DNA of 34,730 nucleotides, taken from contig JANLHB010000005.1 in assembly GCA_024654625.1 (NCBI GenBank), positions 71,191 to 105,920 of the forward strand, in the 5' to 3' direction. Each line of letters begins with the position of its first letter. Position 1 is the stretch's first letter. A program made the position numbers and the translations under genes. The stretch is from Patescibacteria group bacterium (GTDB lineage Bacteria; Patescibacteriota; Minisyncoccia; GCA-002772825). Shown here piece after piece: positions 22,390 through 28,370 of the stretch. A model generated the notes under the pieces. The model ran no database searches and was not told the origin of the DNA. It saw nothing but the letters and a program-made list of their open reading frames with translations.

Positions 22390-24372
<1,983 letters not shown>

Positions 24373-24966
24373 TTATATATTAACATAAATAGCCATTTTT
24401 CTCCAGTACTTTTTAAAGGTTTCAGTGGGGACAAATCTATGCTTTCCCTCCTCCTTATCTACCGAATCCGGGTCGTGATAATAGAAGCCTTTTACCTCCC
24501 CTCTGCCACTTTCAAACCCTGTTAAGAGCACCATGTGAAATTTATCGCCAATTTCAAAATTTTTAAAAATAGAGACTATCACCGGATGTCCATTCTCCAA
24601 TGAAGAAATTATTTTTTCTATTCCCTTATCAATAAGAGCCTCTTCATACTCGCTCACCTCCTCTTTCTTATTGGCATAATCTATCTTGTGGCTTCTAAAC
24701 TCTTGGGGATAAGCCATAAAACCATGATTTCTGGCAAGCAAGACCAAATGATTATGAGACCAGCCGTATGCAGGCAAATTCCCTTCTATATATGCGCCCT
24801 CTTTTATCAAATCATCCGCTGATATAATCACCCTGCCGGACTTTAAATTATAAAAATCCATAACCATCTTGAGGCAGATGACACCGCAAGCACGAGACTG
24901 CCAACTTTCATCCAAGACATCAATGTGTTGAGAATAATAAGGAACGTCTAAAATATGTTTTGCCAT
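24373..24966 (-). CDS. C39-like cysteine peptidase domain protein
   Basis: The 197-residue protein begins ILDVPYYSQHIDV and has SRACGVICLKMVMDFY with the likely nucleophile Cys27, FHMVLLTGFE with the likely catalytic His, and GFYYHDPDS with the likely acidic partner. This is the Peptidase_C39_2-like papain fold. No signal peptide or transporter domain is seen, so it is not a classic bacteriocin exporter peptidase. The substrate is unknown. It lies 6 nt upstream of gyrB in the same direction. Upstream is a 162-bp inverted-repeat structure separating it from pheT. Confidence 0.75.
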   Translation of the reverse strand: MAKHILDVPYYSQHIDVLDESWQSRACGVICLKMVMDFYNLKSGRVIISADDLIKEGAYIEGNLPAYGWSHNHLVLLARNHGFMAYPQEFRSHKIDYANKKEEVSEYEEALIDKGIEKIISSLENGHPVIVSIFKNFEIGDKFHMVLLTGFESGRGEVKGFYYHDPDSVDKEEGKHRFVPTETFKKYWRKMAIYVNI

Positions 24967-25177: not shown

Positions 25178-27571
25178 CTAGGTCGACTTTCTCACCTCCC
25201 ACTCAGGCCTCTCGTCGAGAGCTTTCATCACTTTATCCATAATCTCGTTTATCTCAGTGTCCGACAGTGTCTTGTCATAAGACTGGAAAATAAAGCGAAA
25301 AGCAAAAGATTTCCTCTCCTCGTTCTCATAGATATCAAAAAGGTCCGTGTCAAAAAGAAGTTCGCCTGCCATATTTTCTATAACATCAAGCACTTCTTCA
25401 ACCTTTGTACGAAACGGAACAAAAATAGAAAGATCTCGAACGGCAGAAGGGTACCTAGAAACAGGAGAGTATTCCAACTCTTCACTCGAGATACTCTTCA
25501 ATATATCAAAATCAATTTCCCAGCCTAGAACTGGATCGCCTTGCGCAGAAAAATTACTTATGATACCTAAAATATTGCCATTATATTTTATCAGAGCTGT
25601 ATCTTCCCCGTCATCCCCAAAACGTACGCCTAAAATACCGAGTTTTTCAAAAAGAGTGCTTAAGACTCCCTTAATCTCATAAAAAACTTCGTGTTCTTTA
25701 TTTTTCTTTTTATCTTTATAGGCAATAGATCCGCCTATCATCTTCTTCTCACTAACACACCCGTTATTATCAATCCTAAATACTTCTCCAATCTCAAACA
25801 CTTTAACTTCGTCAAAATATTTAAGGTTCTCTTCAACGTTATTTAAAAATCCCTCCACTAAGCTTGACCTTAAATATTCTTTGCCCTTCGCTATTGGATT
25901 CTGAAGTTCGATATCGCCCCTTTTTGCAAATGAGTAATTATATACTTCGCTAAAACCGGCGCCGACAAAAATATCCTTTATCTTTCTTGATAAGTAATAG
26001 CCCTCGTTTCTAATAGCCAGAACCAAAGCGCTCTCCGGAAGAACGGACGGTATATTTTCATACCCATATATTCTGCCCACCTCCTCTACTAGATCCTCTT
26101 TTATCCTTACATCCAGTCGGCTAGAAGGGACGGTGACGAGCAGTAAATCATCTGCCTCAGTGATGAATCTTCTAAATCCGCGAAGGTTTTTAAACTCTTT
26201 TATTTTTTTTAAATCTTTTATTACTATTTTGCCAGTGAAACTCGATGTATATATAATTTTTCCATTACCCAAATATAAGCCGACATGATCAACTCCTTCT
26301 TTTATCTTCGTTCCTTTCATAAAATTTACCGATTCGTAATGTATTTTATTTATAAGAACTTTTGTATTTGAAAAAACCAAATCACCCGGCTTCAAATCTT
26401 TTTGTTCAATTGGCTTTCCATAAAAATACTGATCTATAGTCATACGCGGAACCTGCACACCCGAATGAGCGAATACATAACTCACAAAAGAAGAACAATC
26501 AAAAAACTCCGGCGCGTCATATGATATACTCGCGCCGTATTTATAAGGTTTGCCTTTTAAGCTTTGCGCAATTTTTAAAATGTTATCAATCGGTTTTATC
26601 TTCTTAACCTCGAAAGACAGACTTTTCAATATTTTGACGATATCTTTCTCTGAGACCTCAAGTCCCAACAACGAAGACACATCCTTAGGGTGAAGACCTA
26701 ACTTATATTGGCTGACCTTCCTGGGGTAAAAATCTTTTACAGCACTACTTTTACCGCCAACCTCTTTTAGAATCAGAGAAGTCGCCTTTTCTAAAGCCTG
26801 TCCCGCAAGATTAAGTGAAATTTCATTCTCAAATCTTACAGAAGAATCGTTTCTAATCCCGACTCGTCGAGAAGTCTTCCTTGTATTTATCGGTTCAAAA
26901 TTAGCCGCCTCTAAGATTATATTTTTCGTCTCACTACCCACCTCTGCCCTCTTACCGCCTTTTATTCCTGCCAAGGCAAGCGGACCATTCTCATCAGCAA
27001 TTATTAAAATATTTTCATCAAGTTCAATATCCTGATTATCAAGAGTCGTAATTTTTTCTCCATTTTTTGCCTTTCTTACTACAACGCTTCCACTTATCTT
27101 ATCAGCGTCAAAAGCATGCATAGGCTGACCAACGTCAAACATAACAAAATTTAAAATATCAACCACATTATTGATAGATTTCTGTCCTATTGCCTCAAGC
27201 CTATCTTTAAGCCATTTCGGTGATAACTTTACCCTTACGCCCTCAATCATCACGCCGGCATAACGTCTACACAAACTCAGTTCTTTGACATCAATATCAA
27301 AATCTATTTTTAATTTGTAGCTTTTTATTTTTAACTTCTCAGTTTTTAATTTTAGGCCAACGATAGCCGATATTTCTCTTGCTATTCCCAAATGACTTAG
27401 GGAGTCGTGCGCTCTATTCGGAGTAACATTTATATCAATAATATAATCGCCTTTTTTCTTCTCAACACTCTCCACTTCTAAAGAGTGCATTGTCAAAAGA
27501 TTAGCCAATTTTTCCGGCTTAGGAATGTCTTTACTAAAATAACTTTGTAGCCATTTATAACTTACTATCAT
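25178..27571 (-). CDS. pheT: Phenylalanyl-tRNA synthetase beta subunit with an inserted NlpC/P60-like domain
   Basis: The 797-residue frame starts MIVSYKWLQSYF and goes straight to INVTPNRAHDSLSHLGIARE, so the EMAP/tRNA-bind domain of long PheT is missing. B3/B4 (about 100-270) and the B5 start (LGLHPKDVSSLLGLEVSEKD ... SLSFEVKKIK to 326) are normal. Residues about 327-472 are foreign: KIAQSLKGKPYKYGAS, FFDCSSFVSYVF (Cys359), DLKPGDLVF and VDHVGLYLGNGKIIY (His429) form an NlpC/P60 domain. At the usual third catalytic position there is Tyr441. PheT resumes at LLLVTVPSSRLDVRIKEDLVEEVGRIYGYENIP and continues through the core to a FDX-ACB anticodon-binding end. It starts 1 nt after pheS. Confidence 0.95.
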   Translation of the reverse strand: MIVSYKWLQSYFSKDIPKPEKLANLLTMHSLEVESVEKKKGDYIIDINVTPNRAHDSLSHLGIAREISAIVGLKLKTEKLKIKSYKLKIDFDIDVKELSLCRRYAGVMIEGVRVKLSPKWLKDRLEAIGQKSINNVVDILNFVMFDVGQPMHAFDADKISGSVVVRKAKNGEKITTLDNQDIELDENILIIADENGPLALAGIKGGKRAEVGSETKNIILEAANFEPINTRKTSRRVGIRNDSSVRFENEISLNLAGQALEKATSLILKEVGGKSSAVKDFYPRKVSQYKLGLHPKDVSSLLGLEVSEKDIVKILKSLSFEVKKIKPIDNILKIAQSLKGKPYKYGASISYDAPEFFDCSSFVSYVFAHSGVQVPRMTIDQYFYGKPIEQKDLKPGDLVFSNTKVLINKIHYESVNFMKGTKIKEGVDHVGLYLGNGKIIYTSSFTGKIVIKDLKKIKEFKNLRGFRRFITEADDLLLVTVPSSRLDVRIKEDLVEEVGRIYGYENIPSVLPESALVLAIRNEGYYLSRKIKDIFVGAGFSEVYNYSFAKRGDIELQNPIAKGKEYLRSSLVEGFLNNVEENLKYFDEVKVFEIGEVFRIDNNGCVSEKKMIGGSIAYKDKKKNKEHEVFYEIKGVLSTLFEKLGILGVRFGDDGEDTALIKYNGNILGIISNFSAQGDPVLGWEIDFDILKSISSEELEYSPVSRYPSAVRDLSIFVPFRTKVEEVLDVIENMAGELLFDTDLFDIYENEERKSFAFRFIFQSYDKTLSDTEINEIMDKVMKALDERPEWEVRKST
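26155..26593 (-). other. Segment of pheT encoding the NlpC/P60-like insert
   Basis: Approximate bounds of residues 327-472 of the pheT product. The insert is in frame and of ordinary base composition for this window. NlpC/P60 enzymes normally cut peptidoglycan peptides outside the cell; here the domain is inside a cytoplasmic tRNA synthetase. Confidence 0.85.
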
Positions 27572-27572
27572 A

Positions 27573-28370
27573 TTAAAATTGCTTGATAAATCTTAAATCC
27601 CCTGAATAAAAAAGCCGTACATCATCAATTTTGTATTTAAGCATAGCGAGCCTATCAACCCCCATACCAAAAGCGAACCCTCTGTATTCCCTTGGGTCTA
27701 ACCCGACACTCTCTAAGACTCTCGGGTGCACCATACCAGCACCGCCAACTTCAAGCCATTTCCCATTTCGACCTCTCCTTATATCTATCTCAACACCAGG
27801 TTCAACAAAAGGAAAGTAGCTAGGCCTTAAACGCACTTCAATATCTTTACTATTATAAAATCTCTGAAAAAATACTTCTATGATCGCTTTTAAATTAGCA
27901 AGATTAATATTCTTATCCACCATCAATCCTTCAAACTGATAAAACTGCGATTCATGCGTCATATCAGTCGCTTCATATCTAAATACTCGCCCGGGAGCAA
28001 TAATCCTTATTGGATGTCCGCCAATGGGCAGATTCTTCATATAACGAATCTGTACCGATGAAGTATGGGTACGAAGTAGAAGCTTCTCTCCTTTTTTTGA
28101 TTTCTCCCCAGCAAGACATAGTTTGTTTTCCCTGTCTTTAATCCAAAAAGTGTCTTGCATGTCTCTCGCAGGATGATCTTTAGGAACATTTAATGCGTCA
28201 AAATTATGCCACTCATCTTCAATTTGAGGACCTTCAGCAATCTCAAAACCCATACCCGAAAAGATGTCTGAAATCTTATCGGTAATTTGAGTTAGTGGGT
28301 GAAGATGTCCGCGAGGCGCTTTTTTACCAGGAGCGGAAACATCTATCCAGTTTTTATCATTATTAATCAT
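27573..28370 (-). CDS. pheS: Phenylalanyl-tRNA synthetase alpha subunit, short form
   Basis: The 265-residue class II core carries GHLHPLTQI, FSGMGFEIAEGPQIEDEWHNFDALN, LLLRTHTSSVQIRYM, RIIAPGRVFRYEATDMTHESQFYQFEGL, EVGGAGMVHPRVL and a C-terminal GFAFGMGVDRLAMLKYKIDDVRLF. It binds Phe and ATP in the alpha2beta2 enzyme. Bacterial PheS is usually about 330-350 residues; the N-terminal coiled coil that contacts tRNA is absent. The pheT start lies 1 nt beyond the stop. The upstream promoter (TATAAT, 14 nt before the ATG) is part of a repeated terminator-promoter module. Confidence 0.97.
   Translation of the reverse strand: MINNDKNWIDVSAPGKKAPRGHLHPLTQITDKISDIFSGMGFEIAEGPQIEDEWHNFDALNVPKDHPARDMQDTFWIKDRENKLCLAGEKSKKGEKLLLRTHTSSVQIRYMKNLPIGGHPIRIIAPGRVFRYEATDMTHESQFYQFEGLMVDKNINLANLKAIIEVFFQRFYNSKDIEVRLRPSYFPFVEPGVEIDIRRGRNGKWLEVGGAGMVHPRVLESVGLDPREYRGFAFGMGVDRLAMLKYKIDDVRLFYSGDLRFIKQF

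Follow-up and report, generated by a model that had tools for sequence, protein, structure and literature searches.

The stretch of DNA analysed here (the window) covers 34,730 nucleotides of a Patescibacteria group bacterium genome (GCA_024654625.1, contig JANLHB010000005.1) and carries the genes for both subunits of phenylalanyl-tRNA synthetase (PheRS), followed by a gene for a papain-fold protein and gyrB (Table 1). In silico analysis with Pfam placed the B3_4, split B5, CLM and FDX-ACB domains together with an NLPC_P60 domain in a single protein, and this protein scored 521 bits against the TIGR00472 pheT_bact model, for which the cut-off is 402.65. No PF01588 match was obtained in the window PheT, in agreement with the original prediction that its tRNA_bind/EMAP (B2) domain is absent. 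The protein shares the order B3/4, B5, CLM and FDX-ACB with the bacterial PheT proteins of E. coli (3pco) and T. thermophilus (1pys/2iy5), but differs from them in lacking tRNA_bind/EMAP and in having its B5 hairpin interrupted by a 149-residue enzyme domain. Many relatives within the class are likewise without tRNA_bind/EMAP, and its loss is not a defining one. The Peptidase_C39_2-like protein encoded next to pheT has no obvious signal peptide, and its gene recurs between pheT (or a gene for a monomeric PheRS) and gyrB at about 24 loci.

Table 1. Features of the pheST locus, in window coordinates.
Feature	Position	Strand	Evidence
gyrB	22390..24366	-	gene in the window
Peptidase_C39_2-like papain-fold protein gene	24373..24966	-	PF13529, E 1.6e-12
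pheT (797 aa), beta subunit of PheRS carrying the NlpC/P60 insert	25178..27571	-	uninterrupted ORF; Pfam; TIGR00472
B5, C-terminal half; first residues overlap the insert end, hairpin strand resumes at aa 476-480	26060..26164	-	PF03484 positions 33-67; model strand
Inserted NlpC/P60 domain (aa 326-474)	26150..26596	-	PF00877; alignment with insert-free relatives; predicted fold
Tyr441 codon (TAT), third catalytic position	26249..26251	-	the remaining 33 distinct PheT inserts have His; sister genome codon CAT
His429 codon (CAT), catalytic	26285..26287	-	His in 34/34 distinct PheT inserts
Cys359 codon (TGT), catalytic	26495..26497	-	Cys in 34/34 distinct PheT inserts
B5, N-terminal half; final strand aa 321-325	26597..26695	-	PF03484 positions 3-35; model strand
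B3/4 editing domain of PheT (aa 101-269), main editing residues present	26765..27271	-	PF03483, E 2.2e-64; residue check
pheS (265 aa), reduced to the catalytic core, without the N-terminal arm	27573..28370	-	PF01409 from aa 9; N-terminal length comparison

The claim that an NlpC/P60 domain lies within PheT proved to be true, since PF00877 matched residues 340-456 with an E-value of 3.5e-18 and a score of 66 bits (cut-off 23). This is the sole NlpC/P60 domain found in the source genome. Alignment with insert-free relatives showed that the 149 inserted residues take the place of a turn of 1-10 residues between two B5 strands; in an alignment with T. thermophilus PheT the insertion point falls between residues 436 and 443 of that protein. 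The bounds given earlier, 26155-26593, are within a few bases of those in Table 1, and the PheT frame does resume exactly after the insert. When modelled alone with AlphaFold2 using 46 homologues, the insert gave an NlpC/P60 fold with a pLDDT of 94.7 and a pTM of 0.89. The nearest solved structure identified by Foldseek was the catalytic domain of the C. difficile autolysin Acd24020 (7cfl; E 1.4e-12), with a TM-score of 0.89 normalised to target length and 33% identity. In a model of full-length PheT (pLDDT 89.2) the insert is bracketed by strands 321-325 and 476-480, as would be expected if the domain projects from the B5 hairpin; the pTM of this model is 0.65, and the relative placement of its domains is less certain. 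Inserts of the main type keep the canonical NlpC/P60 motif 'IPRxSxDQ'. A self-splicing element was also considered, and Pfam detected no Hint or intein domain in the insert, the matches there being NLPC_P60 and, below threshold, the related Peptidase_C92. Together, these data indicate that the insert is almost certainly a complete, independently folding C40-type cysteine hydrolase domain, that is, an autonomous module. B5 has been described as taking no direct part in aminoacylation, its biological function being unknown (PMC10880493). We infer that PheT tolerates the insert because the B5 hairpin is a permissive surface loop, and the finding marks this hairpin as a natural insertion site.

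That such an architecture could be an assembly chimera or a random frame artefact was weighed against other genomes. The one feature found in its favour was a modest dip in GC content (0.327 in the insert versus 0.367 and 0.390 in the flanks). Against it, another genome of the genus, assembled separately and with a PheT that is 77.5% identical overall, has the same architecture, as do dozens of other assemblies, with an open frame and identical junctions. The related genomes that the original prediction had called for thus show the insert to be recurrent in Patescibacteria, with 34 distinct PheTs in addition to eight genomes from outside the window's class. A chimera, which it had allowed for, was not borne out; the independent genomes refute an artefact, and its probability is practically negligible.

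Cys359, His429 and Tyr441 were all found where they had been predicted. In C40 enzymes the third catalytic residue is usually His, and Asn, Gln, Glu or Asp are also seen. Cys-His-His is present in 33 of the 34 distinct PheT inserts, the window copy being the single one with Cys-His-Tyr, and in 42 of 50 free (unfused) forms of the domain; six of the eight divergent inserts from outside the class have Cys-His-His and two have Cys-His-Asp. The insert is also more conserved than its host: in 353 of 377 pairs its identity was higher than that of the PheT backbone (means of 0.501 and 0.435, respectively). Because the triad is kept and the insert is more conserved than the backbone, selection appears to maintain an enzyme in this clade, and the insert is very probably active in most lineages. 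The pair formed by the window PheT and its sister is among the exceptions, with a dN of 0.172 in the insert vs 0.125 in the backbone. The window copy has the profile match, the fold, and the Cys and His of C40, and lacks the third polar residue, Tyr441 standing in its place; it is still C40 by sequence family, and it does not qualify as an active enzyme by its residues. Given the Cys-His-Tyr triad and the faster evolution of its insert, this copy is probably decaying or altered, and weakened or inactive. Of the suggestion that the domain may have lost peptidase activity and become a binding module, the loss of activity probably holds for the window copy; as a general statement the suggestion is not supported, and a general loss of catalysis is rejected, Tyr441 being a change seen in the window alone. 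The broader form of that idea, in which the insert serves PheRS as a binding or regulatory module or as a structural spacer and is not used as an enzyme, draws on the same Tyr441 and the same rate difference, and catalytically dead NlpC/P60 proteins such as RipD (PDB 4jxb) are known. It is quite unlikely, however, as the triad persists in inserts and free forms alike across deep divergence (mean pairwise insert identity 0.50).

The distribution of the insert was determined with a profile built from it, and 15 of 384 genomes of the window's class, in eight families, were found to carry it inside PheT. The 34 distinct insert-bearing PheTs come from Paceibacteria/Parcubacteria-type genomes; the named loci (L044-L070, L072 and L105) include Yonathbacteria, Zambryskibacteria, Campbellbacteria, Vogelbacteria, Terrybacteria and Taylorbacteria. 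A divergent subtype, 'FDCSY', occupies the same PheT site in eight genomes from elsewhere in the phylum, beyond the window's class. The PheTs concerned are 929-970 aa long, and the four that were scanned all retained EMAP. The motifs with which all species were scanned were those particular to the class of the window. In a PheT tree built with the insert columns left out, 30 inserts fell in one clade and the others were scattered, and at least six gains or losses were needed across the phylum sample. In the tree of the NlpC domain itself, one clade for all inserts was not rejected (AU test p 0.51; test and tree without row L150, a HAD-like ORF). A single ancient insertion followed by losses, or several insertions at one site, would each account for this pattern, and neither is shown or rejected by the trees. 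Family f14 PheTs and family f31 mini-PheTs nest within the insert clade and yet have an unbroken B5, which indicates at least two clean losses of the insert. PheRS therefore works with and without the module, and charging does not depend on it.

The mini-PheTs, of 396-433 aa, were seen in four genomes (L006, L188 and L189 in G099, G191 and G167, and L195 in G109); they have neither B3/4 nor the NlpC insert, and all four nest inside insert-bearing clades. A further PheT of family f31 (L190, in G155) is unlike its family in having a tRNA_bind-like N-terminus and an intact B5, divided over two frames (502 + 252 aa); this split PheT is possibly a replacement, a frameshift or an assembly error. With regard to the alpha subunit, the PheS proteins of the main insert clade (the window's and those of loci L044-L066) are without the N-terminal arm of 80-100 residues. 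The other PheS proteins compared, including those of other insert-bearing lineages, keep the arm, with the exception of the mini-PheT genome G099.

The original prediction had suggested that the insert might compensate for the lost EMAP domain, and in its wider form this explanation would have the insert replace both of the lost tRNA-binding parts, PheT EMAP and the PheS arm, which are indeed both missing from the main insert clade. EMAP-less PheTs without an insert are common in the window's class, however, and insert-bearing PheTs with EMAP and with a full-length PheS exist (L105 and L151-L158), which argues that loss of EMAP is not the cause of the insert. To our knowledge, NlpC/P60 domains have no tRNA-binding role. 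Compensation of this kind is thus very improbable, and the suggestion failed. We also asked whether the insert could be a general replacement for B3/4, the known editing domain of PheRS. The B3/4 editing residues are mostly kept with or without the insert, and in the mini-PheTs of family f31 B3/4 and the insert are absent together. Free NlpC genes were found in 6 of 49 genomes without B5 versus 7 of 86 with an intact, insert-free B5, so that no enrichment was seen where the editing domain is missing, and most genomes with a monomeric PheRS, which has no editing domain, are also without an NlpC protein. General replacement of B3/4 editing is thus not supported by either co-occurrence or residues.

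Other Patescibacteria encode the nearest relatives of the insert as free proteins of about 145-175 aa. These begin a few residues before the domain and have no signal or membrane segment; many of the homologues outside Patescibacteria have a hydrophobic N-terminus. A PheRS gene lies within about 6 kb of 16 of the 27 named free copies, and within 5 kb in 12 of the 27 anonymous genomes in which the genes were located, where about 0.4 of 27 would be expected by chance as estimated from genome size, related genomes not being independent. In Giovannonibacteria the free gene abuts a monomeric PheRS gene, and in several of these loci C39 and gyrB come next, the arrangement seen in the window. Its neighbour in Jorgensenbacteria, Harrisonbacteria and others is a divergently oriented pheST, and it is often also next to genes that we take, from our own reading of the sequences, to be gatA, gatC and ligA. 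Since free copies are also found near gatA-gatC-ligA and C39-gyrB, their proximity is not exclusive to PheRS. A relic in G129 (L142:1189-1884) has an NlpC domain between degenerate B5 halves, beside a monomeric PheRS gene, and nests among the PheT inserts in the tree; as read from its sequence, it is a hydrolase domain that has outlived the rest of its PheT.

The monomeric PheRS proteins (L077:6417-7553, L071:6429-7619, L142:1866-3017 and others in genomes of the class) consist of a PheS core and FDX-ACB in about 380 aa, and the Paceibacteria that have them show no B5-containing PheT. Their best PDB match is human mitochondrial PheRS (E ~1e-56), and against the NCBIfam model pheS_mito they score 230, just below the cut-off of 258. 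We found no description of a bacterial monomeric PheRS in the open-access literature.

With the C40 catalytic domains of 7cfl, the T. thermophilus endopeptidase 4xcm and MepS/Spr it shares the fold, the Cys and His and the PRxSxDQ motif, and its relatives share the third His as well. It differs from them in that it sits in a cytoplasmic tRNA synthetase, that its free relatives are without signal peptides, that the loop before its catalytic His is longer and that Tyr occupies the third catalytic position in the window copy. The editing domain of LeuRS is likewise a whole hydrolase domain placed in a loop of a synthetase; it is present as an insertion only, and inserted synthetase editing domains are already known (PMC13114784). 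The NlpC/P60 insert has a different fold and chemistry from the LeuRS domain, and PheT already has B3/4. No report of a PheRS linked with an NlpC/P60 domain was found in the open-access literature, and the combination seems to be undescribed.

The sequences thus show a C40 domain, catalytically complete in most cases, placed in the B5 hairpin of PheT and belonging to a cytoplasmic Patescibacterial family that is recurrently tied to PheRS, being either built into PheT or encoded free near PheRS genes. We propose that the domain acts as a tethered second enzyme and has no share in aminoacylation itself. A small ester or amide of aminoacyl or gamma-glutamyl type, encountered at the place where Phe-tRNA is formed, is its probable substrate; under quality control this could be tRNA-Phe that has been charged wrongly or abnormally, or an amino acid that is blocked. 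The sequences are best read as encoding a cysteine hydrolase that is autonomous, cytoplasmic and tethered to PheRS, although we regard this reading as about evenly poised between right and wrong, and the B3/4 editing residues kept by the insert-bearing PheTs count against it. That the substrate is linked to PheRS, with quality control of aminoacyl-tRNA or amino acids as the leading guess, is more tentative; the amidase or editing-like role named in the original prediction is possible.

A different explanation is that the insert is an ordinary cytosolic hydrolase of peptidoglycan fragments (gamma-D-glutamyl-diamino acid), of the YkfC type, that rides on PheT for stable, constitutive expression, with PheRS irrelevant to its chemistry. 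Its nearest solved structures are autolysins and endopeptidases, the main type keeps PRxSxDQ along with the Cys-His-His triad, and the retained motif is just as compatible with a muropeptide-like substrate. Mur ligases are encoded in the genomes, which hence make wall precursors, and cytoplasmic NlpC/P60 enzymes of the YkfC type have a precedent in Chlamydia (PMC9928106), although these are encoded by separate murein-recycling genes and are not fused to a synthetase. However, the S66 LD-carboxypeptidase family of canonical recycling (PF02016) is absent from 11 of 12 carriers, the PheRS-specific fusion and gene proximity are left unexplained, and the divergent subtype from outside the class has no PR motif and has kept its insertion in PheT. 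We therefore consider the peptidoglycan-fragment hydrolase unlikely, though it is the strongest of the alternatives, and return to the hydrolase tethered to PheRS.

The NlpC/P60 proteins that are tethered to PheRS or encoded beside it could be quality-control hydrolases of a new kind, acting on aminoacyl-tRNA or amino acids, in which a cell-wall family was re-purposed for translation, a proposal that we put forward as conceivable though doubtful. On this proposal, the free proteins linked to PheRS would supply the activity in trans, having in part been set free from PheT. That a family known mainly for cutting cell walls turns up within an enzyme essential to translation, at a single precise site and in separate branches of a large bacterial radiation, is a gene-fusion ('Rosetta stone') hint, and the free and fused forms suggest an unrecognised hydrolase linked to translation.
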